A DNA stretch of 64,000 bases, from NCBI GenBank assembly GCA_903851365.1, contig CAINOB010000059.1, forward strand, positions 1 through 64,000. The letters run 5' to 3'. Of the stretch, positions 4,476 to 61,630 are shown piece by piece (the stretch's first letter is position 1; each line of letters begins with the position of its first letter). This stretch comes from an uncultured Bacteroidota bacterium. GTDB taxonomy: Bacteria > Bacteroidota > Bacteroidia > Bacteroidales > UBA12481. The position numbers and the translations under genes were made by a program. The notes under the pieces are model-generated. The model saw only the letters and a list, made by a program, of their open reading frames with translations. It searched no databases and had not been told where the DNA came from.

Positions 4476-4580
4476 GCTCGCTTACGCTCGCTAATAGGCT
4501 CCCTTCGGTCGCTAATTATTAATTAGTGAGCGCAGCGAACCAATTAGGAGCGCAGCGACCTCTTAACGGAGCGAAGCGGA
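4455..4580. repeat. Tandem GCTCGCT-type repeat array shared by two convergent gene ends
   Basis: The stretch between the convergent genes is made of degenerate units of about 20 nt, such as GCTCGCTTACGCTCGCTAAT and GCTCCCTTCGGTCGCTAATT on the plus strand, with inverted counterparts (AGTGAGCGCAGCGAACCAAT, AGGAGCGCAGCGACC) on the right side. Each unit contains TAG or TAA. The stop of the M28-like gene (4473-4475) and that of the DUF5698 gene (4544-4546) both fall inside units, and the last residues of the DUF5698 protein (LRSVKRSLRS) are encoded by repeat units. The two halves can pair as a large hairpin, which could act as a bidirectional terminator. Confidence 0.75.
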
Positions 4581-5108: not shown

Positions 5109-6125
5109 TTACCTCCATTTAATTACTTTTCCTTTATTTCCTGCCATCCAAACGGCCCCCCTGTTGGGTACAACCTCCAGAGTATGAAAACCATCCTTGC
5201 TGATTTCGGTCCAGCTTTTACCCGAATCCTGCGACATCCAAACTCCGGGAGGGCCGCAAGCCACGATTGTTTCCGCATTTATCCAGCAAATACATTCCAT
5301 AAACGGCACTTGCGATGCACCCTCCGGAACAGTAAAGGTAAGACCATTATCAAGCGACAGTGCAATATTGGTTCCGGTAATAGTCATTTTTTGATAATTG
5401 CCACCTGCGGCAGCCAGATGTTCAGCAGCACCTTTAGCGATGGAGAAAGCTCCGGCAGCAGGATCGCCCTGCAAGAAAGGAAGGGCCGATACCTCCCACG
5501 TTTTACCGAAATCTGAGGACCGGAATATGCGGGCAACCGAACCTCCGGTAGCCAGATAACAGGAACCATCAGGATTGACATCCAGACTGGTGCCACTTGC
5601 TGCAAAGGCATATTCACCTTTAATCAGATCAGGTATCCTGTCAGGTTTCAGCCGCGACCAGGTAAATCCCCCATCTTTTGTTTCCAGGAGGTATGGCTTT
5701 TCGTCAACCGGATCACCGATGAGGAGTCCATGCTTTTTATCGAAAAAATCCAATCCATCGAAGAAAGCTTTAGGATCAGTGTTCTGATAAGTGAGGACCC
5801 ATGATTTCCCTGCATTTTCGGTCCTGTAAATGGCAGAGCCTTTACCGGGGCCGGCGCTCATCAGCAAAGCCACGCGGGCAGAAAAGCCTTGAACATCACG
5901 AAAATCAAGTTTTCCAGCACCCGGTATCGTATCATGGTACCAGGTATATCCTCCATTATGAGTTACTGAAAACTCTCCTTTTGTACCCGAAACCCAGATC
6001 ACTTTTTTAGAGACTACGTTGAGCCCCCGGATGGTCCCGGTCATGCCCGACTGCTGGCTGGTGAAGCCGGATTGGGCATTGAGGGATGGGAAGGTAAGGA
6101 GGAGAAGGAGGATTGGTAGCTTCAT
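5109..6125 (-). CDS. Secreted YCF48/BNR-type beta-propeller protein
   Basis: The start is set at the ATG at 6125 (MKLPILLLLLTFPSLNAQSG), a clean Sec signal. The longer track ORF to 6203 reads through an intergenic repeat. The mature protein of about 320 residues consists of WD/BNR-like blades with the S-x-D/N-x-G-x-x-W/F pattern: VTHNGGYTWYHD, YRTENAGKSWVLT, LETKDGGFTWSRL, FRSSDFGKTWEVS, LSLDNGLTFTVP, WMSQDSGKSWTEIS. This is the photosystem II assembly factor YCF48/HCF136-like fold common in secreted Bacteroidota proteins annotated as 'oxidoreductase' or 'sialidase-like'. No catalytic set is evident. It is upstream of, and 1 bp from, the DUF5698 membrane protein gene. Confidence 0.8.
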   Translation of the reverse strand: MKLPILLLLLTFPSLNAQSGFTSQQSGMTGTIRGLNVVSKKVIWVSGTKGEFSVTHNGGYTWYHDTIPGAGKLDFRDVQGFSARVALLMSAGPGKGSAIYRTENAGKSWVLTYQNTDPKAFFDGLDFFDKKHGLLIGDPVDEKPYLLETKDGGFTWSRLKPDRIPDLIKGEYAFAASGTSLDVNPDGSCYLATGGSVARIFRSSDFGKTWEVSALPFLQGDPAAGAFSIAKGAAEHLAAAGGNYQKMTITGTNIALSLDNGLTFTVPEGASQVPFMECICWINAETIVACGPPGVWMSQDSGKSWTEISKDGFHTLEVVPNRGAVWMAGNKGKVIKWR

Positions 6126-6149
6126 AATCACAGAGTCTTTATGGGGGTG

Positions 6150-6310
6150 AGGCAAATTAGGGCAAGAGGGCAGCAAGGCAAGACGGCAGGAAGGAAAGCC
6201 CAAAAATAAAAAATTATAAGGCCCACTTAATCAGATTATTACTTACTTATTTAATACTTTACTTTTTGCCTTTCTGCCCTCTTGCCCTCTTGCCCTATTT
6301 TGCCTCACCC
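6150..6310. repeat. Long inverted repeat of GGCAAGAGGGCA-type units
   Basis: The left arm, around 6150-6190 (GAGGCAAATTAGGGCAAGAG), and the right arm, around 6265-6310 (GCCCTCTTGCCCTATTTTGC), are near reverse complements separated by about 75-100 bp of A/T-rich DNA. The arms are themselves degenerate tandem repeats of GGCAAGA/GGGCA. In minus orientation the right arm directly follows the mutB stop. The same unit occurs at 11975-12155 and 30740-30832. Confidence 0.75.
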
Positions 6311-6327
6311 CCGTTCGGTAATAAAGG

Positions 6328-10420: not shown

Positions 10421-11974
10421 GTGAAAACCCGGTTCATCTCTGCAGCAGCAATTATCTTTCTGATCGTTGCACAATTTTCATGTATCCAGGTCCCGACCGA
10501 TCTTACACGGGAGAGCATCATCCCGCGCCCGGTTTTGGTTCAGCCTACTGCGCTGTCATTTAAGCTGACCGATAAAACCGACATTTATGTATCAGGACAG
10601 TCGGATGAAATAAAATCTATCGGCAATTATCTGGCTGACAAGCTAAATCCTTCAACTGGCTTAAGATTTGAAGTTAAAACTACATCGAAAGCTCCACATA
10701 ATGGGAATATCTACCTAATACTAGATCCTGATATTCCGGGCATTGGGGAAGAAGGGTATGAAATCAGCATCACTAAAAAGATGGTACAGATTTCTGCCGT
10801 CAAACCGGCCGGATTGTTTTACGGGGTCCAGACGCTTCTGCAGATCCTGCCTGCAAAGGTTGAATCGCCGACTATTCAGGAGGGTCCATGGAGTCTGGCT
10901 ACCGGTACCATCAAGGATTATCCGGATTATGGCTATCGTGGTGCCATGCTTGATGTTGCGAGGCACTTTTTTAAGGCAGAGGATGTTAAAAGACTGATCG
11001 ATCAGATGGCCCGGTATAAGATGAACCGGCTGCATCTTCACCTTGCGGATGATCAGGGATGGCGCATCGAGATAAAATCATGGCCCAATCTGACCACTAC
11101 TGGTGGCAGCACCCAGGTTGGAGGGGCAGCAGGCGGGTTTTATACCCAGGCAGAGTATACGGATATCGTAAAGTACGCACAGGCACGCTATATCACTATC
11201 ATTCCGGAGATCGATATGCCCGGCCACACCAATGCCGCACTGGCCTCCTATGCCGAGCTGAACTGCAATGGCAAAGCCACGAAACTTTATACTGGGACCG
11301 ATGTGGGTTTCAGCACGCTTTGCACTTCCAAGGAGATCACTTATCAGTTTATTTCAGATGTTTTCCGTGAGATAGCCGTCATAACGCCCGGACCTTATAT
11401 TCATATTGGAGGCGACGAATCGCACGTGACCAAAAAAGAAGATTATATTCCGTTTATCAGCAGGGTGCAGGAAATTGTTACATCGGTTGGCAAAATCCCA
11501 ATGGGATGGGACGACATAGCGCTCTCGACATTAAAACCAGGCACCGTTTGTCAGCACTGGGCAACGGTTGAAAATGCCGTTAAGGCTACCGGTCAGGGTG
11601 CCAAGCTTGTTCTTTCCCCGGCCAGCAAGGCTTATCTGGATATGAAATATGACTCGGCAACCACCCTGGGACTCCATTGGGCCGGGTATGTTGAAGTGGA
11701 CAAGGGATATTCGTGGGATCCCGCGAGCTATGTTCATGGTGTTACCAAAGCCGGTATTCTGGGTATTGAGGCTGCCTTGTGGACCGAAACCATCACCAAT
11801 AAAGAGGAGATTGATTATATGGTTTTCCCGCGTTTGCCGGGATATGCCGAGATTGGCTGGACCCTGTCATCGATGCGGTCATGGGACGAATATAAAGTAA
11901 GATTAGGCAAGCAGGGCGAAAGGTTTAAGGCGATGGGGATCAACTTTTACAGGTCGCCGAAGGTCGCGTGGTAG
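10421..11974 (+). CDS. Beta-N-acetylhexosaminidase, GH20, lipoprotein
   Basis: The track ORF opens at a TTG at 10358, but the GTG at 10421 gives a clean lipoprotein signal (VKTRFISAAAIIFLIVAQFSC) and is preferred, leaving 517 residues. An N-terminal GH20b domain (about residues 30-165) is followed by the GH20 barrel starting at YRGAMLDVARHFF. Substrate and catalytic motifs: HLHLADDQGWRIEI; the catalytic Asp-Glu pair in HIGGDESH (about D332/E333 by the new start); and LWTETI. It would release terminal GlcNAc or GalNAc from glycans or chitooligosaccharides at the cell surface or in the periplasm. It is monocistronic, divergent from mutA, and followed at its stop by a tandem repeat. Confidence 0.93.
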   Translation: MKTRFISAAAIIFLIVAQFSCIQVPTDLTRESIIPRPVLVQPTALSFKLTDKTDIYVSGQSDEIKSIGNYLADKLNPSTGLRFEVKTTSKAPHNGNIYLILDPDIPGIGEEGYEISITKKMVQISAVKPAGLFYGVQTLLQILPAKVESPTIQEGPWSLATGTIKDYPDYGYRGAMLDVARHFFKAEDVKRLIDQMARYKMNRLHLHLADDQGWRIEIKSWPNLTTTGGSTQVGGAAGGFYTQAEYTDIVKYAQARYITIIPEIDMPGHTNAALASYAELNCNGKATKLYTGTDVGFSTLCTSKEITYQFISDVFREIAVITPGPYIHIGGDESHVTKKEDYIPFISRVQEIVTSVGKIPMGWDDIALSTLKPGTVCQHWATVENAVKATGQGAKLVLSPASKAYLDMKYDSATTLGLHWAGYVEVDKGYSWDPASYVHGVTKAGILGIEAALWTETITNKEEIDYMVFPRLPGYAEIGWTLSSMRSWDEYKVRLGKQGERFKAMGINFYRSPKVAW

Positions 11975-12155
11975 TAGTAAAGGCAAAAAGGCAGGAGGGC
12001 AAAAAGGCAAGAAGTAAAGTTATAAGTCAAAATTGAAAAGACTTAAGGGTGCATTCTGGAGCAACGCTATTAAAGACGGACACTTAAAACTTTTTTCTCA
12101 AAACTTACTTCTTGCCTTTTTGCCCTCCTGCTCTTTTGCCCTTTTGCCCTTGCAG
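11972..12155. repeat. GGCAAAAAGGCAGGAGGGC tandem repeats forming a long inverted repeat
   Basis: Right after the GH20 stop (TAG, then TAGTAAAGGC) comes a block of GGCAAAAAGGCAGGAGGGCA units. About 90 bp later, before the hicB end, there is a nearly exact inverted copy (TTGCCTTTTTGCCCTCCTGC). Each arm is oriented as a 3' extension of the gene it follows, and together they can form a stem of about 30 bp. It is plausible as a bidirectional terminator. Confidence 0.75.
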
Positions 12156-13440: not shown

Positions 13441-13520
13441 GATCGAAGAAGAAGATCGGTGGACGAAAGAAAGATCGGCAGAGTTGTCATCCCCGCGAAG
13501 GCGGGGACCCCGTCCCTAAC
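13441..13520 (+). repeat. GAAGAAGAAGATCGG array plus GTCATCCC hairpin, copy 2
   Basis: Immediately after the slyD stop: GATCGAAGAAGAAGATCGG, then TGGACGAAAGAAAGATCGG, followed at 13486 by the hairpin repeat GTCATCCCCGCGAAGGCGGG and ACCCCGTCCCTAAC. The stem is CCCCGC/GCGGGG. The two repeat families sit back to back. Confidence 0.8.
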
Positions 13521-13538
13521 AGCGACATTATCTTGAGG

Positions 13539-14924: not shown

Positions 14925-14931
14925 ATCTTAA

Positions 14932-14986
14932 TTTGAAAATTTGAAAATTCGACAATTTGGTAATTTGGTAATTTGGTAATTCGGAG
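14932..14986 (+). repeat. AATTTGGT tandem repeat (about 8-nt period)
   Basis: TTAATTTGAAAATTTGAAAA, then CGACAATTTGGTAATTTGGT with further units. It is a degenerate 8-9-nt tandem. The same family follows the prfB stop at 19845-19890 (ATTTGATA units). It sits between the divergent fumC and FISUMP genes, so unlike most arrays here it is not at a 3' end. Confidence 0.75.
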
Positions 14987-19841: not shown

Positions 19842-19888
19842 TCATTATCAAATTATCAAATTGTCAAATTATCAAATTAGCACATTGG
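19842..19888 (-). repeat. ATTTGATA tandem repeat after prfB
   Basis: In minus orientation, beginning a few bases after the prfB TAG: GTGCTAATTTGATAATTTGA, then CAATTTGATAATTTGATAATG. The period is 8 nt and each unit carries TGA and/or TAA; because 8 is not a multiple of 3, stops occur in all frames. Confidence 0.8.
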
Positions 19889-21027: not shown

Positions 21028-22152
21028 GTGATGATCCAAACCGGTCTCGATAACCTTCTGCTCTCCCCCGAAGTTCAATCCTTGGTTAAAGGTAAGATTG
21101 CCTATCTCGGCCATGCAGCCTCCGTTTCATGGAGGATGGAAAATGGACTGGATGAGGTGGTCGGACTGTATGGCAGTCGTGTGATCAAGGCTTTCGGACC
21201 GCAGCACGGATTCGGATCCGTGGTGCAGGACAACATGATCGAAACCTCACACATGCTGCATCCCGCTTGGAAAATTCCAGTTTATAGCCTGTATGGCGAA
21301 ACACGAAAGCCAACGGATGAAATGCTGGAAGGTATCGATACTCTGATCATCGATCTGCAGGATGTGGGTACGCGCGTGTACACTTATATATGGACTCTTT
21401 ACCTCACGATGGAGGCTTGTCTGGGCAAAGATATCCGGATCCTGGTTCTGGACCGACCCAACCCGATCGGTGGAATAGTTACCGAAGGAAATCTACCTGA
21501 TCCGGATTGGTATTCCTTTGTCTGCCTGGCACCAATTCCGATGCGTCATGGAAAAACAATCGGTGAAATGGCGGTATGGTTTAAGGAATTGAACCATTGG
21601 GACATTGATCTGCAGGTTGTTTCCATGACTGGTTGGGAGCGGACCATGCTCTGGAAAGATACCGGTCGATTGTGGGTGAACCCCTCACCCAACCTGCCGA
21701 CTGCCGAAGGGTGCCTCGTGTATCCGGGTATGGTTATGTTAGAGGGAACGGTACTTTCTGAGGGACGCGGAACAACCAGAAGTCTGGAACAGTTTGGTCA
21801 TCCGGCTATTAATCCTTACGCCATCCGCGTTGAACTCTTAAAATATCTAAAGGATAATAACTTGGAGGGCATGGTATTACGACCGGTCTATTTCCAGCCA
21901 ACTTTTCACAAATTTGCCGGGGAGGTTTGCGGCGGTTATCAGATCCATGTTATCGATCCTGATAAATTTCAACCCTGGAAAACCATGCTGTACGTACTGA
22001 AATTTCTTTATCAAAATACCAAAATCCGGCCATTCTGGAGTGATAAACCCTATGAATATCAGTTTGATGGGTTCGCGTTTGACTGGATTAACGGCTCTTC
22101 CAGAGAACGAAGGTGGATTGAAGGAAGTGAAAAGTTAAAGATTCCAATTTAG
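21028..22152 (+). CDS. namZ: NamZ-like exo-beta-N-acetylmuramidase (DUF1343, GH171)
   Basis: A 374-residue protein covering the full DUF1343/NamZ family: KIAYLGHAASVS, FGPQHGFGSVVQDNMI, VYSLYGETRKPTDEML, DLQDVGTRVYTYIWTL, RPNPIGG, PMRHGKTIGEMA and PNLPTAEGCLVYPGMVMLEGT. Characterised members remove terminal MurNAc from peptidoglycan fragments. No signal peptide is visible at this start, nor at the adjacent second Met. The start lies 46 bp from the divergent prfB start, leaving no room for a leader, so the enzyme may act in the cytoplasm on imported muropeptides. The stop TAG is embedded in a short degenerate repeat (AATTCCGAGTTCCGAAATT). Confidence 0.88.
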   Translation: MMIQTGLDNLLLSPEVQSLVKGKIAYLGHAASVSWRMENGLDEVVGLYGSRVIKAFGPQHGFGSVVQDNMIETSHMLHPAWKIPVYSLYGETRKPTDEMLEGIDTLIIDLQDVGTRVYTYIWTLYLTMEACLGKDIRILVLDRPNPIGGIVTEGNLPDPDWYSFVCLAPIPMRHGKTIGEMAVWFKELNHWDIDLQVVSMTGWERTMLWKDTGRLWVNPSPNLPTAEGCLVYPGMVMLEGTVLSEGRGTTRSLEQFGHPAINPYAIRVELLKYLKDNNLEGMVLRPVYFQPTFHKFAGEVCGGYQIHVIDPDKFQPWKTMLYVLKFLYQNTKIRPFWSDKPYEYQFDGFAFDWINGSSRERRWIEGSEKLKIPI

Positions 22153-22209
22153 AATTCCGAGTTCCGAAATTACAGATTCAAGTATTTGTGAAGTATAAAG
22201 AAATTACCA

Positions 22210-23091
22210 ATGAAAAAGATATTGTCCCTATTAGTTGTCTGCGTTGCAATGCTGTCGTGCACGGAGCAAGTTACAAAACCCGATTTTACGTTTGCGTTTT
22301 TGACCGACATTCACATTACGCCGGACAAGAGCGCGCCGATTGGATTTCAGCAGGCCATTGACCATGTGAACAGTTCGAAAGTCGATTTTGTGATTACGGG
22401 CGGCGACCAGGTCATGGATGCCCTCAATAAATCGCGCGCCGGGGCCGATTCGCTGTATCAGCTGTACAGCAGCCTGATGAAGGGTTTTAAGATGCCGGTT
22501 CACAATACCGTTGGCAATCATGAGCTTTTTGCATTTTACAATAAATCCATCGACACCCTGGATCCGGACTATGGCGAGGGGATGTTTCGACGCTACTTTG
22601 GTAATCCATGGCAATCATTTGATTACAGAGGATGGCATTTCATTCTGCTTAAATCGATTGAGCAAACGCCTGACCGTCATTACGAAGGCAAGATCAATCC
22701 GGTGCAAATGGAATGGCTGAGGCAGGATCTGGCAAAAGTGGATGATAAAACGCCTATCGTGGTATCAGTTCATATACCACTTATCACCGCATACAACCAA
22801 TGGCAGGAGGGCGGTCAGCAGGTTAATGGTGCCGGCTCAGTGATCACGAACGGCAAAGCAGTGATGGACCTGCTTCGGAAGAAAAACCTGAAGCTGGTAC
22901 TGCAGGGACATCAGCATTATTATGAAGATCTGTTTATGGATGGAGTTCATTTCATTACCGGCGGGGCTGTTTCTGCCGGATGGTGGGGCGGCGCAATCGG
23001 CAAAATGGAAGAAGGATATATGCTGATCAAGGTCACTGGCGATAAGATGGAGACGGAGTATGTTGATTATGGTTGGAATGCGAGGAAGTGA
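22210..23091 (+). CDS. Calcineurin-like metallophosphoesterase lipoprotein
   Basis: A 293-residue lipoprotein (VCVAMLSCTEQ) with the full metallophosphoesterase motif set: TDIHITP, GGDQVMD, GNHE, VSVHIPL and GHQHYYED. It is exported and likely hydrolyses phosphomonoesters or diesters, substrate unknown. It lies 57 bp after namZ on the same strand. The stop TGA (23089-23091) is the first TGA of a GTGACGG tandem array. Confidence 0.88.
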   Translation: MKKILSLLVVCVAMLSCTEQVTKPDFTFAFLTDIHITPDKSAPIGFQQAIDHVNSSKVDFVITGGDQVMDALNKSRAGADSLYQLYSSLMKGFKMPVHNTVGNHELFAFYNKSIDTLDPDYGEGMFRRYFGNPWQSFDYRGWHFILLKSIEQTPDRHYEGKINPVQMEWLRQDLAKVDDKTPIVVSVHIPLITAYNQWQEGGQQVNGAGSVITNGKAVMDLLRKKNLKLVLQGHQHYYEDLFMDGVHFITGGAVSAGWWGGAIGKMEEGYMLIKVTGDKMETEYVDYGWNARK

Positions 23092-23200
23092 CGGGTGACG
23101 GGTGACTGGTGACCGAAGAATCGTGACTCGTGACGCGGGACGCGTGACACGGAGGACGAAGAAGAAGATCGATAGACGCAGGAAAGACCGAAAGACGAGA
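23088..23200 (+). repeat. GTGACGG array plus GAAGAAGAAGATCG block
   Basis: It begins at the stop codon of the phosphoesterase: GTGACGGGTGACGGGTGAC, then TGGTGACC, then GAAGAATCGTGACTCGTGAC, then GGACGAAGAAGAAGATCGAT and AGACGCAGGAAAGACCG. The TGACGGG unit has a 7-nt period, so three units put TGA in all three frames. The order (GTGAC array, then the GAAGAAGA block) recurs at 25540, and on the minus strand at 34012, 35783 and 39762. Confidence 0.85.
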
Positions 23201-23340: not shown

Positions 23341-25557
23341 ATGAAACACTTAATCTCATTAACCTTCCTGGTCATCCTGCTTACTGCCTGCCAGCCAGGC
23401 GATCAGCAGACAAACATTTTCCGGATACCCGGAATGTCAGTCAATGTTAGCGGTTCGGGTGAGATTTCCCGGATTGAGTTTACCGGAAAAAATCAGGCCC
23501 GTGAGGTCCGGGCCCTAAGCAGTCTGGCCGATTGCAAGCCCGAAGGAAAGATCAGGGTAATACGCAAGGTTACGCAGATCAGCTTTAAACAAAAATGGGT
23601 GTCACTCTCAACAGGAAATTCCTGCACACTTACCAACCGGTTCAGTCCGGGAAAAGGCAGTGTAAAATGGGAAATCGAGATTACCGGCATTAAAGGTACC
23701 TGGTCAACACCCATTGAGACGAGGTTGATATATCCCGATTCTGCGAAAGCTAAAATTTGGACCGCCTGGGGAGATCCGCGATTAGGTACCATACGTAAAC
23801 AATCCGCTGAGCAGATAGCATCGCTGGGTATTTTACCTTCGGATATTACAGGCAACTGGAGCGACCCGCTGGTACCGATCCCATTTGTCAATGATACTCT
23901 CTGGTACGGCGCTCCGCCATATAGTTATAATAATCCTCGATTAGGTTTCTGCCCCTTTCAGGGCAACCTTTTCGGCATTCCAATGGTATCGGTACTGGAA
24001 GAAGGATCGGGTTTCGGCATGAGCGTGATCTTATCGCCCGAGGATACCCTCCTCGATCTGAATTTGCGCACCAGTACTTCAGGGGAATTGGTTTTCTCAA
24101 GGGAATATAACAGGATATCAGCAGGCAAAACCATTCATTTTTCGATGGATATTGTCGCCCACGAAGCCAGCTGGCGAGGCGGATTGCGCTGGATGACAGA
24201 AAATTATCCCGGATATTTCAACCCGAATATTGAACTCGCAGATCAGATTGCTGGAACCGGGGCCTATTCATCGCTCGAAACGGCGTTTGATCTGAATAAG
24301 ATGAAAAAGATGGCGTTCGGAGTCAACTGGAAGGCCAGCTTCGATTTTCCATACATGGGAATGTTTATTCCTCCTGTTTTAACTGATACAACCCGCTGGC
24401 CGAGATTTGGCGGCGGCATCACATCTATCAGGGATATGCAAGTATATGCTGCAAAAATGAAAAGCCAGGGATTTCATGTGCTGAGCTATTTTAACGTAAC
24501 CGAATTCGGGGCCGGAATCACGGACCCTGCTCCACCCGCTAAAATAGTGGCAGCGCAGGATCTCTGGCGAAATGCCGACAATTTTTTATACGGGAAACTG
24601 GCCGATGCGATCCTTCACGTGCCAGTGGCAGTATCAAAAGAAAAACTCGCATTCTATCCAAAGTCCAGGCCAAACGGGCCCTATTTCACCTGGGGCAACG
24701 GGATCATCATGGATCCGGGCGAGCCGGTTTATCAGGAATATTTAATGGACCAGGCCAGAAAACATATCGAGAAAATCCCTGATGCAGAGGGAATCTGCAT
24801 CGACAGGATGGATTGGCTCAGGATGTATAACGAGCAGCGCGATGACCAGGTGAGTTGGTTCGGCAATAAGCCTACCCGGTCGCTCCTGATCTCCTGGCAC
24901 AGTCTGCTTAACCAGCTCGGGCCGCTGATGCACAAGGCCGGAAAAGCAATCTTTATCAACAATCATGATAAGCGCATTGATCTTCTCAAACAGACCGACG
25001 GATTTTTTGATGAATTCACTTATGGCGGATCACCATTGAACCTGACGGCGCTTATGGGGGTTCGGAGGCCGGTGCTGGGCTGGACGAGTGAGGAAAAAAA
25101 TCTGAGGCCCGATCCCGATGCATTCTTCCAGCGATATCTTTACTTGGGAGTCTATCCGATGGCCCCGTTCCCCGGCAATGATCATTCCTTGCTGCCAAGT
25201 GAATGGGTGGACAAGCAGTATCTCGATTATGGCCCGATGCTGCAGACCCTGAAGGGTAAAAAGTGGGTTCTGGAACCGGATTGCATCTTGGCGGAAGGCA
25301 AATCGGCCAAAGTAAATTTATTTAAAACTCACGACGGTTGGGTGATTCCGGTTGTTTTTGGACCCAAAGAAGGATCTGTTAACCTGATTATCAAGAAGGT
25401 GGTTGGAATGAATGGAACGCTCCGGGCGGAGGTCCTTTACCCGGGAACCGATAAGCCGACGGAGATCGCGATTAACCAGGCGGCTGATGTGATCAGGCTT
25501 GCCGTACCTTTACACAGAGGATGTGCGATAGTGAGGCTTGTGACAGGTGACAGGTGA
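23341..25557 (+). CDS. Lipoprotein of unknown function, probable TIM-barrel glycoside hydrolase
   Basis: A 738-residue lipoprotein (VILLTACQPGD). I cannot assign it to a named family. Residues about 30-290 look like an all-beta domain. Residues about 300-640 have alternating helix/strand character with catalytic-looking Asp-rich strand ends: AEGICIDRMDWLRMYNEQ, KAIFINNHDKRIDLL and DGFFDEFTYGGSP. The end is again beta-rich (WVIPVVFGPKEGSVNLI). A beta-sandwich, TIM-barrel and beta-sandwich order is typical of retaining glycosidases of the GH-D/GH31 kind. It stands just upstream of a GH92 gene. The stop (RLVTGDR then TGA) is encoded by a GTGACAGG tandem repeat. Confidence 0.55.
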   Translation: MKHLISLTFLVILLTACQPGDQQTNIFRIPGMSVNVSGSGEISRIEFTGKNQAREVRALSSLADCKPEGKIRVIRKVTQISFKQKWVSLSTGNSCTLTNRFSPGKGSVKWEIEITGIKGTWSTPIETRLIYPDSAKAKIWTAWGDPRLGTIRKQSAEQIASLGILPSDITGNWSDPLVPIPFVNDTLWYGAPPYSYNNPRLGFCPFQGNLFGIPMVSVLEEGSGFGMSVILSPEDTLLDLNLRTSTSGELVFSREYNRISAGKTIHFSMDIVAHEASWRGGLRWMTENYPGYFNPNIELADQIAGTGAYSSLETAFDLNKMKKMAFGVNWKASFDFPYMGMFIPPVLTDTTRWPRFGGGITSIRDMQVYAAKMKSQGFHVLSYFNVTEFGAGITDPAPPAKIVAAQDLWRNADNFLYGKLADAILHVPVAVSKEKLAFYPKSRPNGPYFTWGNGIIMDPGEPVYQEYLMDQARKHIEKIPDAEGICIDRMDWLRMYNEQRDDQVSWFGNKPTRSLLISWHSLLNQLGPLMHKAGKAIFINNHDKRIDLLKQTDGFFDEFTYGGSPLNLTALMGVRRPVLGWTSEEKNLRPDPDAFFQRYLYLGVYPMAPFPGNDHSLLPSEWVDKQYLDYGPMLQTLKGKKWVLEPDCILAEGKSAKVNLFKTHDGWVIPVVFGPKEGSVNLIIKKVVGMNGTLRAEVLYPGTDKPTEIAINQAADVIRLAVPLHRGCAIVRLVTGDR

Positions 25558-25620
25558 CGGGTGACCGAAGAAGAAGACCGGTAGACGGAAGACGATAGAC
25601 GAAAGACAGTAGGCAGAAGA
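25540..25620 (+). repeat. GTGACAGG array plus GAAGAAGAAGACCGG block
   Basis: GTGACAGGTGACAGGTGACG, GGTGACCGAAGAAGAAGACC, GGTAGACGGAAGACGATAGA. The first two units encode the last residues (VTGDR) and stop of the preceding gene. The rest of the gap to 25726 (about 105 bp) shows only A/T-rich DNA with a near-promoter TTTTTACTTTG. Confidence 0.85.
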
Positions 25621-28749: not shown

Positions 28750-28769
28750 TTGGGTTTTAGGTTTTAAAC

Positions 28770-28898
28770 CACAGAGTCACCGAGATTCACAGAGCTCCGT
28801 CTACTGCAGACTGAGTACTGCCAACTCTTCCGGTCTTCTTCTTCGTCCACCGATCTTTCTTTCGTCTATCGGTCTTCTGTCTTCCGTCTCCTGTTTAT
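28770..28898 (-). repeat. Mixed repeat block between convergent genes
   Basis: On the minus strand, right after the stop at 28895: CAGGAGACGGAAGACAGAAG, then ACCGATAGACGAAAGAAAGA, then TCGGTGGACGAAGAAGAAGA, then a GCAGTACTCAGTCTGCAGTA segment. It is the GAAGAAGA family without the GTGACGG part. The GH92 side has ACCACAGAGTCACCGAGATT. Confidence 0.75.
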
Positions 28899-30739: not shown

Positions 30740-30832
30740 AAATAAGGCAAAGGGCAGGAAGGCAGGAAGGCAAATGGAAAGCTTCAAGGCAGAAGGCAGA
30801 AGGCAAAAGGGAAGGAAGAAGGAATAAGGAAG
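30740..30832 (+). repeat. GGCAGGAAGGC tandem repeat upstream of pfk
   Basis: AAGGCAAAGGGCAGGAAGGC, AGGAAGGCAAATGG, then GGCAGAAGGCAGAAGGCAAA. It is the same family as at 6150 and 11975, here in a divergent promoter region. The track ORF for pfk reads through it, which is why that N-terminus is rejected. Confidence 0.75.
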
Positions 30833-30837
30833 AAGTG

Positions 30838-39660: not shown

Positions 39661-39762
39661 CCGTGTTTCGCGTTTCGTGTCACGTCTTCCGATATTCTTC
39701 TTCGTCTATCGATCTTTCTTTCGTCACCCGTCACTTGTCACCCGTCACTTGTCACCCGTCAC
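39661..39762 (-). repeat. GTGACGGGTGACAA array plus GAAAGAAAGATCG block
   Basis: Minus strand: GTGACGGGTGACAAGTGACG, GGTGACAAGTGACGGGTGAC, GAAAGAAAGATCGATAGACG, AAGAAGAATATCGGAAGACG, then TGACACGAAACGCGAAACAC. The first 18 nt encode the C-terminus (VTGDK, stop) of the PmoA-like protein. The array ends 5 bp before the ATG of the next gene. Confidence 0.87.
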
Positions 39763-44973: not shown

Positions 44974-45429
44974 CTAGTTGAGATCTTTCATTACCCGGAG
45001 TGCGAGATCTACTTCGAAGCCCCGGCTCTGGGCAAATTTCAGGAGTTTCTGCTTTTTGTTGTGCGGATTGGATTCACCTTTCAGCTCCCTTGATTTTTTT
45101 TGGAGCAGTTCTTTAAGAGTTTCTGCATAGAGCTCCTCATCAATATCGGCCAGGACCTGATCGATAACCGAATGCCGAACCTTTTCCATGGAGAGCATAT
45201 AACGGATTTTGATGCGACCCCAATGATTCAGGCGAACTTTGTCCTTGACATAAGCATTTGCAAACCTTAAATCATCGATAAATTTCTCCTTAATAAGATG
45301 TTCAATTACGGTTTCGATATCCTCCGCTGAGGTATCCCAGTATTTAAGTTTCCCCCTGATATTAGCTTCACTGTATTCTGTTCTGGAGCACAGTTCCATA
45401 GCTCTGCTTAGTGCCTGTATTTTATCCAT
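44974..45429 (-). CDS. recX: Regulatory protein RecX
   Basis: A 151-residue protein built of three-helix RecX repeats: ALSRAMELCSRTEYSEANIRGKL, DIETVIEHLIKEKFIDDLRFANAYVKDKVRLNHWG and IKIRYMLSMEKVRHSVIDQVL. It inhibits RecA filament extension in characterised systems. recA is not nearby. It overlaps prmC by 8 nt and follows it, so the two are co-transcribed. Confidence 0.93.
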   Translation of the reverse strand: MDKIQALSRAMELCSRTEYSEANIRGKLKYWDTSAEDIETVIEHLIKEKFIDDLRFANAYVKDKVRLNHWGRIKIRYMLSMEKVRHSVIDQVLADIDEELYAETLKELLQKKSRELKGESNPHNKKQKLLKFAQSRGFEVDLALRVMKDLN

Positions 45430-46327
45430 GATATGCTCGAATCATACGGTCCTTGCCGTGAATATCTTTATGAAGTTCAACTTTGGAAAACCATTTGCGG
45501 AATATTTCTGCAGTCTCCTCACCTAAACGATCGTGAATCTCAACATATACCTGCCCGCCGGGATTAAGGTTTGATGCCGCAAATTCCGCTATAGCCTTAT
45601 AAAATAACAATGGGTTTGCGTCAGGAACAAACAGTGCCATTTCAGGCTCATACCTGATGACATGCAGATCCATCGACGTCATTTCGGATAAAGGCACATA
45701 GGGAGGGTTTGAGACGATGATATCAAAAGGTTTCGTGGTAAGGGACGGGGTCCCCGCCTCCGCGGGGATGACAAGGCTATCGAGGGTAAGGATGTTAAAG
45801 TAAGCTATTGATAGTTCGACCTTATTTATTCCGGCATTTTCTTTTGTGAGTTGGAGTACTGCCTCCGAAATATCTGAGGCAACCACTTCGGCATCCGGCA
45901 GGTGCTTTGCCAGGGCAATTGCAATTGCCCCGCTCCCGCATCCAATATCTAATATTCGCAACCTTTTCCCAACTGGCTCAACTTCACTTGTCATCCCGGC
46001 GAAAGTCGTAAGTATCCACTCAACGAGCTCTTCGGTTTCCCCTCTCGGAATCAGCACTCCTGATTTAACATTAATTTTTAGCCCATAAAATTCAGTCTCA
46101 CCAAGGATATACTGGATTGGCTCATGCATTTTCAACCGAACAATTATGTCTGAAAGATGACTTTCCTGATCTGGAGGAAGTTGATTCGCCTGATTCAGCC
46201 TAATCTGCACCCAGCTAAGCCCTGTTAGGGACTCCAGCACCAGCCGTCCAATCGAATCGATTTCGCGGACCGGATACAGACCGTTCAAAGCTTCAGCCAG
46301 GATTCTTTGGATATCCGAATATCTCAT
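45422..46327 (-). CDS. prmC: Release factor glutamine N5-methyltransferase, with two repeat-derived insertions
   Basis: A 301-residue protein. It has the N-terminal helical domain, YILGETEFYGLKINVKSGVLIPRGETEELVEW, SAM motif I (ILDIGCGSGAIAIALAK) and the Gln-binding NPPY in IIVSNPPYVPL (207-210). It methylates the Gln of the GGQ loop of RF1/RF2. It is about 20 residues longer than usual. Two loops are encoded by the genomic GTCATCCC hairpin repeat: TTFAGMTSE (107-115), just before motif I, and SLVIPAEAGTPSL (184-196), just before NPPY. Both preserve the frame and lie outside the catalytic motifs, so the enzyme probably still works. Confidence 0.93.
   Translation of the reverse strand: MRYSDIQRILAEALNGLYPVREIDSIGRLVLESLTGLSWVQIRLNQANQLPPDQESHLSDIIVRLKMHEPIQYILGETEFYGLKINVKSGVLIPRGETEELVEWILTTFAGMTSEVEPVGKRLRILDIGCGSGAIAIALAKHLPDAEVVASDISEAVLQLTKENAGINKVELSIAYFNILTLDSLVIPAEAGTPSLTTKPFDIIVSNPPYVPLSEMTSMDLHVIRYEPEMALFVPDANPLLFYKAIAEFAASNLNPGGQVYVEIHDRLGEETAEIFRKWFSKVELHKDIHGKDRMIRAYHG
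45741..45776 (-). repeat. GTCATCCC hairpin repeat, copy 6, inside prmC
   Basis: Minus strand GTCATCCCCGCGGAGGCGGG, then GACCCCGTCCCTTACC. The stem is CCCCGC/GCGGGG with a GGAG loop, nearly identical to copy 2. It is read in frame as LVIPAEAGTPSLT within PrmC. Confidence 0.88.
45990..46010 (+). repeat. Half copy of the GTCATCCC repeat inside prmC
   Basis: Plus strand GTCATCCCGGCGAAAGTC, the left half of the hairpin with the right stem lost. It is inverted relative to copy 6 and read on the minus strand as TTFAGMTS. Confidence 0.7.
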
Positions 46328-48544: not shown

Positions 48545-49576
48545 ATGACCCTGACACACGAAGATTATATGCAGAGGTGCCTCGACCTGGCCCTGAACGG
48601 TTTAGGTTCGACGGCCCCGAATCCGATGGTCGGATCGGTGATGGTGAATAACGAACGTATCCTTGGGGAAGGATATCATACCGGATTCGGCAAACCCCAT
48701 GCTGAAGTAGAAGCGATTGCCCAGGTAAAAAACCCTGCGTTGTTGACTGAATCAACGTTATATGTAAATCTCGAACCTTGCAATCATCAGGGGAAAACTG
48801 GTCCGTGCACAGATCTTATTCTTGAAAAAGGGATCAGGAAAGTAGTTATCGGCCAGTGCGATACAAACCCGGTGGCAGGTGGAGGAGTGGAAAGATTGCG
48901 TAATCATGGCGTTGAAGTGATCACTGGTATTTTGGAAAATGAATGCCGGTTTCTCAATCGCCGTTTCAATACATTTCATGAACATCAACGACCTTACGTG
49001 ATCCTTAAATGGGCGCAGACGACCGATGGTTATGTTGATTCAGACCGGGCTGGGATCCAGGGTTCGGGTCCTGCATGGATTACCGACGAAACCTGTCGCC
49101 GCCTGGTTCACAAATGGAGATCCGAAGAGCAGGGTATCCTCGCAGGTTCGCAAACTATCCTGCTCGATAATCCGCAGCTGAATGTGAGGTCATGGTCAGG
49201 CCGCGATCCCGTGCGCATTACCATTGACAGGACAGGAAAAATACTTGCTGGAACATTACCGACGATAGTTTATACTTTTATCGATCAGCAAAATAAACCG
49301 AACCTCAATTTTGTCAGGATATCACCTGTTTCACCAGTTTGGCCCCAGGTTTTTTCAGATTTATATCACCGCAATATCCAATCGGTATTGATCGAAGGTG
49401 GCCCCACTCTGCTGAACACCCTGATAAAAGAAGATTACTGGGATGAGGCCCGCGTTTTCATTGGTCCAGGATGGTTCGGAAACGGTGTAAAAGCCCCGGA
49501 GTTTGCATTCACCCCATCAGAGGAAGAGAAAATTGGTAACTCAAGGCTCCTTATTTTTAAAAGGAATGGAGCTTAG
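48545..49576 (+). CDS. ribD: Bifunctional riboflavin biosynthesis protein (deaminase/reductase)
   Basis: A 343-residue protein. The N-terminal deaminase has TAPNPMVGSVMV, the zinc motif PHAEVEAI (about residues 49-56) and PCNHQGKTGPCTDLI. The C-terminal reductase starts at RPYVILKWAQTTDGYV, with SEEQGILAGSQTILLDNPQLNVR and VLIEGGPTLLNTLI. It converts the first pyrimidine intermediate of riboflavin synthesis in two steps. No other rib gene is adjacent. The stop TAG is the first of two TTAGCACAT repeats. Confidence 0.95.
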   Translation: MTLTHEDYMQRCLDLALNGLGSTAPNPMVGSVMVNNERILGEGYHTGFGKPHAEVEAIAQVKNPALLTESTLYVNLEPCNHQGKTGPCTDLILEKGIRKVVIGQCDTNPVAGGGVERLRNHGVEVITGILENECRFLNRRFNTFHEHQRPYVILKWAQTTDGYVDSDRAGIQGSGPAWITDETCRRLVHKWRSEEQGILAGSQTILLDNPQLNVRSWSGRDPVRITIDRTGKILAGTLPTIVYTFIDQQNKPNLNFVRISPVSPVWPQVFSDLYHRNIQSVLIEGGPTLLNTLIKEDYWDEARVFIGPGWFGNGVKAPEFAFTPSEEEKIGNSRLLIFKRNGA

Positions 49577-49662
49577 CACATATTCACATTAGCACATCAT
49601 TCGTCTGCTCTTTAGCATTCCATCGGATTTGACGATTTCGTACCTTTAGTAAAAATTAGCCT

Positions 49663-49834: not shown

Positions 49835-51496
49835 ATGAAAACAAAGAGAATTGCTGGCTTGATCCTGCTGTTCTCATGCAGCATGATAGCTTTTAGCCAG
49901 AATAAAGGAGTTAAAACCATTACCGAAGGAGAGCTTCGTTATCACCTGGGCTTTCTGGCCTCGCCGGAGTTTCGGGGCAGAATGAACCCTTCAGCCGAAC
50001 TCGATATTGCCACGGTCTATCTCGGTAACTGGGCTAAGAATTCCGGACTAACACCCCTCTTTCCGGATGGATCTTACTATCAGCCCATACCCACGAAAGT
50101 TTCCTGTGTTTCAGAACCCAATACCCGCCTCCGTATCATTAATAGTAAAGGTGAGCAGGTATATTATTACAGGAAATCTTTTGGTGGTAATTTTTCTGTT
50201 TCCGGCAGTTACAGTGGAGAAGCCGTTTTCATCGGACTGGGAATAACCAATACTGAAAAAGGTTGGGACGACCTGAAGGACATCGATTTATCGAACAAGA
50301 TGGTTATCCTGTTGGATGAGCCCATGCCTGGCCAAAAAACAGAGCTCGGATCCACCTATGCTTACCGGTTAAGCTCACGGATCAGCCTTATCCGGGAAAA
50401 AGGGGCAGCCGGCGTTCTTGCAGTGATACCCCCAGAGCTTGAATCAAAACACAGTCATGGTGTTAATATTTTTGACAGGATACCCAGCGGCCGGATGACG
50501 GATTATTTCGATACCCAGCGCAGGGGTACGCCTCCGGCGACTGCCACCCAGAATCAGCCGCAGCAACCTGTCCGCAGGCCTTCGCTCCCGTTCGGACAAG
50601 CCGCAGTGAGCCATGATCTCGCTGCAGCTATCCTGGGAATTTCCGTTGAAGAGGTTGGCAAAATGTTTCAGACTATCAGGCAGGGGATTGAAGTACCCGG
50701 TAAAATAGTGACTGGTACAACAATCCAGTTGAATGTTGAAATCGAAAACCAGGACCGGACTTCACGAAATGTTATTGGTATGATTCCCGGTTCCGACCCA
50801 AAACTTAAGGATGAATATATTGTGGTCTGTGCGCATCACGATCATCTGGGAATAAGCGATGGGCAAGTCATTGCGGGTGCCGATGATAATGGTACCGGAA
50901 CCGTGGCACTTCTTGAAATTGCCCAGGCCCTTATGACTGAGAGGCCAAAACGATCTGTAATTATTGCCTGGTTTACCGGTGAAGAAGAGGGCATGAACGG
51001 ATCGCACTTTTTCGTGAATAATTGCCCGGTTCCCATCGAAAAAATCAGCGCCTGCCTCAACCTCGACATGTTGGGCCGGAACAATACCGACAGCCTGTAC
51101 CTGGTGGGATCTAACCTGTTGAGCTCCGAACTCGATGCTTCCATCCACAAGGTTAATACGCAATCAGGAATCAATTTCGGATTCAATTACCTGTATTCCA
51201 ACCTCACACATCCTCAGCGGGTTTATTTCCGAAGCGATCATTATCCATTCATCCGCTTTGGCATCCCCTCTGTCTGGATCTTTTGCGGATTTACTCCGGA
51301 TTACCACACGCCCCGGGATATTCTGGAATTCATTAATTATCCCAAATTTCTGAAAGTCACTAAACTCACTTATCTCACGGCTTATGAGATTGGGAACAAA
51401 CCTGAATTATTAAAACTGGATGTTAACCCGGAGGTCAAGTCGCGCGGCAAGCATAATATGCAGACAAGGAGCCTTTTTGAGAATGTTAAGCAATAG
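49835..51496 (+). CDS. Exported M28 zinc peptidase
   Basis: A 553-residue protein with a Sec signal (FSCSMIAFSQNKG). Canonical M28 site: CAHHDHLGISDGQVIAGADDNGTGT (His and bridging Asp), WFTGEEEGMNGSHFF (catalytic Glu and ligand Glu), NLDMLGRN and the final His in YFRSDHYPFI. A PA-type insert lies around residues 125-250, including a low-complexity PPATATQNQPQQPVRRP linker. It is an aminopeptidase-type enzyme acting in the periplasm. The stop TAG is the start of a TAGGCAGTCGGCAG repeat. It is first of three degradative genes on this strand. Confidence 0.93.
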   Translation: MKTKRIAGLILLFSCSMIAFSQNKGVKTITEGELRYHLGFLASPEFRGRMNPSAELDIATVYLGNWAKNSGLTPLFPDGSYYQPIPTKVSCVSEPNTRLRIINSKGEQVYYYRKSFGGNFSVSGSYSGEAVFIGLGITNTEKGWDDLKDIDLSNKMVILLDEPMPGQKTELGSTYAYRLSSRISLIREKGAAGVLAVIPPELESKHSHGVNIFDRIPSGRMTDYFDTQRRGTPPATATQNQPQQPVRRPSLPFGQAAVSHDLAAAILGISVEEVGKMFQTIRQGIEVPGKIVTGTTIQLNVEIENQDRTSRNVIGMIPGSDPKLKDEYIVVCAHHDHLGISDGQVIAGADDNGTGTVALLEIAQALMTERPKRSVIIAWFTGEEEGMNGSHFFVNNCPVPIEKISACLNLDMLGRNNTDSLYLVGSNLLSSELDASIHKVNTQSGINFGFNYLYSNLTHPQRVYFRSDHYPFIRFGIPSVWIFCGFTPDYHTPRDILEFINYPKFLKVTKLTYLTAYEIGNKPELLKLDVNPEVKSRGKHNMQTRSLFENVKQ

Positions 51497-51525
51497 GCAG
51501 TCGGCAGTTGGCGGTAGGCAGTGGT
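51494..51525 (+). repeat. TAGGCAGTCGGCAGT tandem repeat at the M28 stop
   Basis: TAGGCAGTCGGCAGTTGGCG, then GTAGGCAGTGG. The first TAG is the stop codon of the preceding gene. The same family occurs at 35706 (in the pepX array) and as TTGGCAATCAGCAGTCGGCA at 59639. Confidence 0.8.
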
Positions 51526-59606: not shown

Positions 59607-59662
59607 ATTACCGAATTACAGCAAAAACCGGACCGCAGCAGTTGGCAATCAGCAGTCGGCAG

Positions 59663-61630
59663 TCATCGATTAACGTACAAATACCGTATCCGGCAGGCGC
59701 GGCCAGTGCTTTTGGCGTTTTTTTCAGAGGCCATCCTGATTTGGATTTCGTGTTTGCCCACTGAAAGCGCGGTGCCTAACGTATAAAACCAAGGTAAATG
59801 CAGGCCAGCGCTCCAGACGGTAAACAGGTCCTTTTTCATCCAGGTCCCTCCATCAATGCTGTATTCAATGATACCGGCATCCGGACCGGCTGCAACTGCA
59901 ATTCCGACGGCATTTCCCGTAAAACGATATTTTAATATGCCGGAATTGCCCTCATTCACCAGCATAGGAACATCAGTATAATTATCGCGGGTTCCCTTGC
60001 CATCTTTGGGCTGCCATTTCTCATCAACCGTCCAACCTTTCGCGGCTTTAATCTGATGTATGTCGATTAAAGCACCGGTCCCGTAATTTGAATTATCAAG
60101 GGGAGCCGGCAGATAATGATCAGTCGCAATTTCACCTGCCGGGGATCCGCTCCAGGCTTTGTCGAGGAAGGCTTTCATCGACCGAAAATAAATATGCTGC
60201 CCAAAAGGCGATGGATGCAAATCTTTGAAGTCCTTCTCCCAGGTAAATTCGTCGGCATTGATGCGTTCAGTCACCTCCCTGGCCAGATTAATAGTCGGCA
60301 CCTGATAATGCATCGCAACCCGTTCATGGTTCTGAATAACCAGTGGAACCTGACCTTTCCGATACATCTCAATTTTTCCGGGATCCACAAAATGCATGAA
60401 AACAATATCTGCTTTGGGATTATTTGTCAGCGTGTGCCTGACAATTCCCTCCATAGCCCGGATCTGCTCAACGGTAGGAAATTCATTGGTGTCATCATTA
60501 ACTGCAGCCTCCTCAAAAAGCAGATCGACCGGTCCGTGCGACAATACATCCTGCTCCATACGGAAAGCGGCAGGCGTACTGCCCATCGATGGGACACCGG
60601 CATTAATAAATTCAAATTCAGTAGATGGGAATCTCTTTTTCAGATAATTGCAGATACTATCGCGCCAGCCGCCACCCCAGGTGATCGATCCGCCAAGAAA
60701 GGCGACCCTGCCCTTTCTATCCCGTTCAAACCGGATCAGACTGTTACGAAGTCCGCTCCTCAGCTCATGGAATACTGTTGGATCGAGAATTGGTTTTGGT
60801 AGTATCGTGCTGCAAATGATAAAATTAGCCGCAATTCGAGGCGTTTCAATAGGAAAATGATGTCCCATCAGGTCTTGCTTTCCAAGCGTGCATGGCACGA
60901 GCATCGCCGGACCTCCGAGCCTGGCATATCTTTCAAAAAGAATACTCGTGTTTTCATCCGGCGGAACCACTTTATCTTCCAGCCCTATCATATGGATCAG
61001 AGGCACTTTGGCGGTTGCAAGTTTATCGAGATGATCATAAGCCAGATCTGCATAAGCTTTTGCCTCCTCATCGGACTTGAAACCAAACTCCTTTTTCAGC
61101 AGGTCCCAGTCAGCCTTGCTTCCGACACCCTTGCCAAAACCTCCCGGCCAGCTCTTAAAATCGCACACCGGCGCTTCGCCATAAATGGCATTTACCCGCT
61201 CAGGGTGTTTCTTAGCCCAGGAATAAACATACAGCCCACCGCGGCTCACACCTTCGAGCGAGACTTTCTCATTCAGGTGATACTGACTGCGCAGAAAATC
61301 GTAAAAACGGTCCCAGATACCCACCGCTCTGGGACTGCCGAACATGTCGACCGCATCAACATAAGCAACATGAAAACCCTCGGATAACAGGATGCTGTCC
61401 ATTTCGTAATGCCAGTCGAAAAACATGGCCTTCCAAATCCAGGGGTTTCCGGGGAGAGGTTTAGCGGGTTTCACCAAAAATGCGATCATTCCCTCAAAAG
61501 GAAATTCCAATCTTTCATATCCCTTCCAGATGGATGTTTTTGGTTTGGGCTGGTTCTGGGCCAGTCCTTTTTCCTGATACATACCGGTGAACAGAATCAC
61601 CAGGAAGCTACAGAGAATCAATTTTCGCAT
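59663..61630 (-). CDS. Two-headed exported hydrolase: alpha/beta-hydrolase fused to SGNH esterase
   Basis: A 655-residue protein with a Sec signal (VILFTGMYQEKGLAQNQ). Domain 1 (about 35-280) is an alpha/beta hydrolase: SLEGVSRGGLYVYSW with Ser 129, then IGLEDKVVPPDEN (Asp side) and MGHHFPIE (His side). Domain 2 (about 305-495) is an SGNH hydrolase: block I VAFLGGSITWGGGW with Ser 315, block III AVNDDTNE, block V DLHPSPFGQ with Asp 470/His 472. A C-terminal beta domain (about 520-655) follows. It probably deacylates decorated glycans at two types of ester. It starts 11 bp after the GH106-like gene, in an operon with it. Confidence 0.88.
   Translation of the reverse strand: MRKLILCSFLVILFTGMYQEKGLAQNQPKPKTSIWKGYERLEFPFEGMIAFLVKPAKPLPGNPWIWKAMFFDWHYEMDSILLSEGFHVAYVDAVDMFGSPRAVGIWDRFYDFLRSQYHLNEKVSLEGVSRGGLYVYSWAKKHPERVNAIYGEAPVCDFKSWPGGFGKGVGSKADWDLLKKEFGFKSDEEAKAYADLAYDHLDKLATAKVPLIHMIGLEDKVVPPDENTSILFERYARLGGPAMLVPCTLGKQDLMGHHFPIETPRIAANFIICSTILPKPILDPTVFHELRSGLRNSLIRFERDRKGRVAFLGGSITWGGGWRDSICNYLKKRFPSTEFEFINAGVPSMGSTPAAFRMEQDVLSHGPVDLLFEEAAVNDDTNEFPTVEQIRAMEGIVRHTLTNNPKADIVFMHFVDPGKIEMYRKGQVPLVIQNHERVAMHYQVPTINLAREVTERINADEFTWEKDFKDLHPSPFGQHIYFRSMKAFLDKAWSGSPAGEIATDHYLPAPLDNSNYGTGALIDIHQIKAAKGWTVDEKWQPKDGKGTRDNYTDVPMLVNEGNSGILKYRFTGNAVGIAVAAGPDAGIIEYSIDGGTWMKKDLFTVWSAGLHLPWFYTLGTALSVGKHEIQIRMASEKNAKSTGRACRIRYLYVNR

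Follow-up and report, generated by a model that had tools for sequence, protein, structure and literature searches.

In the genome of an uncultured member of the Bacteroidota, the stop codon of a gene for an M28 family peptidase lies within a tandem array of heptamers, and short arrays of other words stand at the ends of several other genes nearby. This raises the question of how arrays that differ in their words come to share the same position relative to stop codons. The window, a stretch of 64,000 nt (G000:C59:1-64000), belongs to a genome of 5.23 Mb in 130 contigs (G000), and the nearest relatives of its ribD gene are found in Bacteroidales/Bacteroidetes MAGs at 65-69% identity. The survey covered 1.26 Mb of G000 (~24% of the genome; 911 genes, 92% coding), together with a control set of 1.16 Mb of Bacteroidota loci. 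Genes were called with a codon-pair scorer in the 1.26 Mb of G000 and in 0.4 Mb of G008, which represents another genus of the same family; in these custom calls on MAG sequences, stops are reliable and starts uncertain. Arrays were called with Tandem Repeats Finder (TRF) at a period of 7-9 nt and a score of at least 40.

Arrays at gene ends in the window and in the genome

The initial annotation had proposed that repeated words of various sequence are placed at the stops of the M28, ribD, prfB, namZ and GH20 genes (Table 1). The TAG of the M28 gene (51494-51496) does lie inside the first units of an array, whose unit over the TRF range is TAGGCAG/GCAGTNG. The prfB gene (PF03462 and PF00472; stop at 19889 on the minus strand) is followed by 4.5 copies of TTGATAAT, starting 9 nt past the stop at the TRF edge and 2 nt past it with looser scoring, and the array of the GH20 gene (PF00728) begins 4 nt past the stop. 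The inverted partner of the GH20 array adjoins the stop of a convergent gene; three in-frame stop triplets, TAG TAG TAA, occupy 11972-11980, just before the AAAGGCAA array. At the ribD gene the words overlap the stop as described, and the succession TTAGCACAT-ATTCACAT-TAGCACAT amounts to about 2-3 imperfect copies that TRF does not call; this run is credible because in a relative (L046) an unambiguous AGCACATCA array occupies this position. At the namZ gene (PF07075 and PF20732), AATTCCGAG is present at the stop (22150), but in only about two copies that are again uncalled by TRF. The array near 14932 in a divergent promoter, already named as a counterexample, is indeed away from any stop.

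Table 1. Repeat features of the window and the genes that they adjoin (positions in the window; strand as given by the analysis)
Feature	Position	Strand	Basis
Inverted-arm element AAGGGCA...TGCCCTT in tandem gap	6159..6305	.	TRF
AAAGGCAA array past GH20 stop, left arm of inverted pair	11979..12014	+	TRF
Inverted partner of GH20 array, AAGGGCAA on minus strand	12112..12151	-	TRF, inverted-arm score 66
Convergent junction with GAAGAAGAAGATCGG units and REP-like palindrome, 98 nt	13441..13538	+	
REP-like palindromic element D (GTTGTCATCCCCGCGAAGGCGGGGACCCCGTCCC)	13480..13536	+	nhmmer; 1 of 40 copies in 1.26 Mb
Divergent-promoter array TAATTTGA	14929..14981	.	TRF
Octamer array TTGATAAT/CAATTTGA after prfB stop	19844..19879	-	TRF
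AATTCCGAG two-copy run at namZ stop	22150..22172	+	member of dispersed GAATTCCGA family
GTGACGG array beginning on native TGA stop of metallophosphoesterase gene	23088..23152	+	TRF, Pfam
GTGACAG array over stop, then GACGAAA units	25540..25607	+	TRF
GTGACGG/GTGACAA array over DUF6807 gene stop	39722..39762	-	TRF, Pfam
ribD gene	48545..49576	+	Pfam PF01872, PF00383
Weak TTAGCACAT word run across ribD stop, 2-3 copies	49572..49600	+	sequence
M28 family peptidase gene	49835..51496	+	Pfam PF04389, ORF
Heptamer array over M28 stop, TAGGCAG/GGCAGTC, 4.7 copies	51490..51522	+	TRF, sequence
GGCAGTC-family array at 59663 stop	59636..59665	-	TRF

Other repeats are also present in the window. A separate family with a unit of 22 nt (CTCGCTTACGCTCGCTAATAGG type) extends over two convergent stops at 4455-4580 and occurs with inverted arms at other places in the genome. 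The stretch around the inverted-arm element (~6119-6316) gives BLAST matches of 73-85% to many contigs, with similar copies in the related genomes G001, G005 and G006. At 28760-28800, a convergent gap is partly taken up by CCACAGAGTCACCGAGATTCACAGAG, a low-complexity element that looks dispersed, and a similar element follows the ortholog of gene 51571 in another relative, G004 (L171). Heptamer arrays also occur inside called ORFs (30744-30835 in the window, C1:28558-28735 and C18:21964-22087 elsewhere in G000), some of which may be gene-call extensions.

Across the 1.26 Mb of G000, 170 arrays were detected, 109 of them intergenic and 61 in genes (1.07 and 0.05 per kb, respectively), and the period is 7 in 90 of the 170. 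Random sequence would hold about one intergenic array, and an origin by chance is rejected by second-order Markov simulations, which give 0-1 arrays per 63 kb of intergenic and 1-4 per 797 kb of coding sequence. Placement at stops is far above chance. When arrays and other shared repeats were treated as blocks, 52 of the 89 tandem gaps (12.7 expected) and 13 of the 14 convergent gaps (4.9 expected) had a block within 5 nt of a stop, whereas only 5 of the 89 tandem gaps had one within 5 nt of the start (12.7 expected). Starts are thus avoided, rather than being adjoined by arrays as commonly as stops are, and the stop placement proposed for several words in the window holds genome-wide and withstands several null models. 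In tandem gaps of the first 860 kb, the array edge has a median distance of 3.5 nt from the upstream stop and of 46 nt from the downstream start. Start avoidance alone is ruled out as the cause, since 21 of the 38 arrays at least 50 nt from a start still lie within 12 nt of a stop (5.9 expected). In divergent gaps, array blocks have no edge preference (1/10), and all repeat blocks taken together have a weak one (4-5 of 24, 1.1 expected). The density of arrays is 2.14 per kb in convergent, 1.42 in tandem and 0.45 in divergent gaps.

Array-free gaps are tiny, with medians of 17 nt (tandem) and 10 nt (convergent) when overlapping genes are included. The medians of the gap that remains after masking and of the array-free gap are 18 and 21 nt (convergent), 48 and 30 nt (tandem), and 135 and 153 nt (divergent), where the masking drew on 24% of the genome and the residual may hold unrecognised repeats. 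Because the residual gap has about the length of an ordinary gap, the arrays represent added DNA.

Arrays of other words also abut stops in the control loci of other Bacteroidota. Arrays of TTCTTAGA or TTTTAGA start on a TAG stop in L079, L088, L105 and L112 and in L117, L119 and L121 (Flavobacterium), and the Flavobacterium gene ends concerned are apparently orthologous across several species. Very long arrays follow stops in L056 and L122, with TRF scores of 147 and 229.

Words, phase and strand polarity

The placement was originally explained by polymerase slippage or template switching that copies words outward from each stop codon, and five further families were said to share the same placement. 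A local source of each word is not borne out, and the families are not independent of one another. Single mismatches join 29 of 34 heptamer units (8 after shuffling of the letters) and 12 of 32 octamer units (3 in shuffles), and the TAGGCAG- and AAGGCA-type heptamers share one such network with GTGACGG and AAGACGG. The words are common to dozens of loci and differ little from each other; GTCACNNGTCAC has 191 matches in the genome, compared with 4 for the reversed pattern. Because the words are shared genome-wide and form one network, derivation from each local stop is both unneeded and unsupported.

The phase of the stop within the array bears on the same question. The AAGGCA and AGACG words contain no stop triplet, yet they abut stops, some starting exactly there, and always with the same strand, whereas arrays of GTGAC, AATGTGC and TAGGCAG carry stops in all frames. 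Where GTGAC arrays lie over stops, the first, second and third units hold the in-frame stop in a ratio of 4:3:4, as random phase predicts. For all stop-bearing words taken together the ratio is 11:4:6, a modest excess that leaves room for some bias of the stop towards the first unit. Outward copying would account for this excess, for the precise abutment of arrays on stops, and for units that hold the stop in other Bacteroidota (TAG followed by TGACTAGTGAC in L110, TTTAG followed by ATTTTAGACTTTAG in L121). It is an unlikely source of the arrays, because the words are genome-wide and linked by single changes, stopless words abut stops as well, the GTGAC phase is random, and the polarity described below is the same at start edges, where no stop is involved. 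Such a polymerase process may be a way in which arrays lengthen.

A fixed polarity is a property of the elements. In 61 of 68 arrays with a strong skew (p=7e-12; this and several other tests share one array set), the purine-rich strand has its 5′ end towards the nearest gene, and in 85 of 103 arrays that end is the one closer to its ORF, both at stops and at starts. Within the left half of gaps the plus strand is purine-rich in 47 cases against 5, and in the right half it is pyrimidine-rich in 38 against 13, whatever the strands of the genes (Spearman -0.64, p=5e-14). In tandem gaps with the array edge between -40 and +15 of the stop, purine-rich sense strands outnumber pyrimidine-rich ones by 34:7, and in convergent gaps by 16:1; the array at 59636-59665, which reads CTGCCGA in gene direction, is pyrimidine-rich. 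At start edges in divergent gaps the purine strand is antisense in 11 of 12 cases. Orientation of the gene strand or of the replication strand was rejected as the cause, since polarity follows the geometry of the gap in all four gene arrangements. Polarity was likewise rejected as a general property of Bacteroidota, being absent from the 16 arrays of G008 and the 88 arrays of the control loci. With a canonical quadruplex motif in only 8 of the 170 arrays, quadruplexes cannot be the basis of the polarity rule in this genome.

It is conceivable that arrays grow in a manner coupled to transcription, in which ribosome-free, purine-rich RNA re-anneals past the stop to form an R-loop and purine-rich words undergo break-induced expansion. 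Both the anchoring at stops and the purine-rich sense strand found there would follow from such growth. We consider it quite improbable, because the antisense purine strand at start edges is not predicted by transcription of the gene concerned and because the control Bacteroidota show no polarity.

Polarity stands out most in gaps that also hold other repeats (45/49). Composite elements are present as well: heptamer arrays often precede, in a repeated order, a REP-like palindrome of 58 bp (GTTGTCATCCCCGCGAAGGCGGGGACCCCGTCCC), of which nhmmer finds 40 copies in the 1.26 Mb, some inside called genes. Inverted arms of one family occur within the same gap in 4.2% of pairs, compared with 0.4% of shuffled pairs, and the majority of arrays lack a partner. 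Other genomes also contain AAGGCA arms around a conserved middle. Two Y1_Tnp transposase genes of the RAYT family are present in the genome, and one RVT_1 match in the whole genome lies on C123. Several GCCGC-TA-GCGGC palindromes, which form a second REP-like family, flank the RAYT gene at C1:77100-77900 (L273). A copy of the REP-like palindrome (dRS3-like, encoding VIPAEAG) also occurs in frame at 45730-45790 on the minus strand, within a prmC/hemK-like gene (45422-46327), and this stretch has BLAST matches at very many places in same-genus genomes.

These features would suit a model in which the arrays are arms or heads of non-autonomous MITE- or REP-like elements inserted by a transposase, lone arrays being their decayed remains. 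The ordered association with the palindrome and its presence inside genes, the tenfold excess of inverted arms, the recurring AAGGCA arms, the clearer polarity in shared gaps and the transposase genes all argue for it. Element edges are not constant, however, many arrays stand alone, and the palindromes beside the C1 RAYT gene (GCCGCTATGCGGC) differ in sequence from the array-linked one. Composite elements were also rejected as the full explanation of polarity, because lone arrays that are strongly purine-skewed still show it (16/19, p=0.004); among lone arrays of any purine skew, the figure is 20/31 (p=0.15). At about 75-88% identity, the species compared lie too far apart to offer clean empty sites. 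Insertion as mobile elements is possible, and we hold it as a tentative alternative.

Turnover at orthologous junctions and the origin of the arrays

When the stops of the window were compared with same-genus genomes, the relatives compared being about 70-90% identical, both members of a pair were empty in 36 cases, one only had an array in 23, and arrays of the same or of a different family, as labelled by short word counts, faced each other in 12 and 10. Most ortholog pairs, with and without arrays, share the codon at which the gene stops; when an array is gained, the stop stays in place. Truncation of coding sequences by arrays is contradicted by these unchanged stops. At the M28 stop, GGCAGTA/GGCAGTT units begin at the same stop in G001, and G005 has no array. 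The prfB position has the same array family in G001 and G006 and none in G005. Relatives have AAATTTGC, GTGAAGAAC or AGCACATCA arrays at the ribD stop, which in G004 (L166) is followed by GAACGTGAA units and then by CACATCA units. The metallophosphoesterase gene of G001 ends at the same codon without a GTGAC array, the stop under the array at 25540-25607 has GGCAGTC in G001 and G006, and the junction at 59636-59665 has larger arrays of other content in these two genomes.

Whole junctions vary in a similar way. The convergent junction at 13441-13538 measures 98 nt in the window, 7 nt in G005, 36 nt in G006, where it holds a GTGAC array, and 207 nt in G001. At C18:41825-41868, AATGTGCT units in G000 and G001 correspond to GTCAC units in G006, and the flanking genes and the start region are conserved. 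In G006, an insert of ~110 nt, made up of GGCTCAA-type and other sequence, is flush with the stop of the M3 peptidase gene, and behind it the hairpin of the window's gap is kept. Flush placement is not universal: at the 57432 junction, an AAGGCA element of G001 is separated from the stop by some tens of nt. Because the content differs between species at orthologous stops, the arrays are recurrent insertions at the same junctions. They are dispersed, polar and stop-anchored, they consist of added DNA, and they undergo fast turnover and word replacement without a shift of the stop.

Two further readings are based on selection. If arrays inserted anywhere and the gene then ended at the first stop supplied by the array, the random GTGAC phase would be expected, as would the stop-free orientation of in-gene arrays (6 of 7 GTGAC-family arrays inside genes are antisense, in the GTCAC orientation). 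The shared position of the stop codon in array-bearing and array-free orthologs in most comparisons, and the abutment of stopless words, contradict pure coding selection at most loci and make it very improbable as the general cause; it may act at a few loci. Alternatively, the arrays could have a selected function at the 3′ end, such as three-frame backup stops, a Rho site or control of RNA stability. Rho-binding sites are C-rich with a spacing of 7-8 nt, a pattern that the C-rich antisense strand of the arrays shares, and GTGAC, AATGTGC and TAGGCAG arrays do stop all frames. The AAGGCA and AGACG arrays lack stops, the stop of an ortholog can have no array, a different one or a swapped one, and most genes have none; selection for such a function is hardly probable.

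The best explanation, to which we assign a probability of about one half, is that dispersed arrays are recurrently inserted at gene junctions just past the native stop. According to this model, the dispersed intergenic arrays would be long simple-sequence repeats with units of 7-9 nt, comprising one heptamer network together with a small number of octamer families; they would often be joined to one another or to the REP-like palindrome, and they would be gained, lost and replaced at junctions directly after the native stop or sharing a few letters with it. Gene-end junctions would receive copies of array segments that exist elsewhere in the genome, possibly by homology- or microhomology-primed template switching, and the number of units would then shift by slippage. 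Retention would occur mainly at the stop, where an insertion breaks no protein and keeps the initiation region of the next gene. Arrays probably survive mainly at stops because the genome is very compact and the stop is the one harmless spot for insertion.

Tolerance alone may not explain the anchoring, because convergent gaps, which have no promoter, are still anchored at one stop: the block abuts one stop in all nine convergent array gaps that retain a residual (9/9). Unrecognised repeats in the residual gap could produce this anchoring. A further reading, which is possible but considerably less probable than insertion with tolerance, is that a DNA process aware of translation or transcription adds purine-headed arrays at the native stop, with mirrored polarity at start edges. 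It would be independent of the word and of G-quadruplexes, would operate not only in Xanthomonas and Nostoc but also in Bacteroidota, and would take its words from existing arrays.

Comparison with known repeat systems

Heptamer arrays of bacteria have been noted since the STRR sequences, and to our knowledge no origin has been accepted for them. In some respects the arrays described here are related to the REP/BIME sequences associated with RAYT, in that a palindrome of ~58 bp is present in tens of copies beside them and RAYT genes occur in the genome; they differ in that the arrays themselves are not palindromes and the C1 RAYT gene is flanked by another palindrome. The STRR heptanucleotide repeats of heterocystous cyanobacteria, and the long simple-sequence repeats (LSSR) among which heptamers are the commonest class (Mrazek, as cited in PMC4679880), are alike in having short tandem units of 7 nt at many intergenic loci; a stop-codon test of STRR was not found in the literature searched. 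The tandem repeats of Borgs, archaeal extrachromosomal elements, are described as pervasive, rapidly evolving and independently arising (PMC9879509). The present arrays are similarly pervasive and fast-evolving, whereas they are dispersed in a bacterial genome and anchored at stops.

The TAACTGA heptamer repeats of Beggiatoaceae and some Cyanobacteria and Bacteroidetes (MacGregor, 2015; PMC4679880) likewise form dispersed arrays, with a unit that stops all frames, and 13 sets overlap the stop of the upstream gene; in some Bacteroidetes they are mixed with other heptamers. They lie mostly just before start codons, whereas starts are avoided here (5/89, 12.7 expected) and the words are different. 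The TAACTGA unit is absent among the 25 commonest consensus units of the present survey.

The closest description concerns the quadruplex-forming heptamer repeats GGGAATC and GGGGA(C/T)T of Xanthomonas and Nostoc (Rehm et al., 2015; PMC4692102). These are intergenic, rare between divergent ORFs and frequently present as inverted pairs, and they have a strong bias to stop codons, including overlap with them: they occupy the sense strand within 50 bp of stops and the antisense strand ahead of starts, and the G-rich strand has its 5′ end closer to its ORF. Higher genomic stability was reported near them. The present arrays are alike in their tandem units of ~7 nt, intergenic enrichment, strand polarity (61/68), scarcity between divergent ORFs (0.45 per kb) and stop bias, so that their placement at gene junctions looks like the one already described for Xanthomonas and Nostoc, with other words and in another phylum. 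They differ in having many words of 7-9 nt, a quadruplex motif in only 8/170 arrays, a host among the Bacteroidota, arrays joined to a palindrome, replacement of words at orthologous stops and fast turnover between species. The rule of stop and strand had been described for G-quadruplex heptamers and was discussed with reference to quadruplexes. Its occurrence in an unrelated phylum with mostly non-quadruplex words, together with replacement of words at a fixed stop, argues that the rule belongs to the acquisition or tolerance of arrays at gene ends rather than to quadruplexes.
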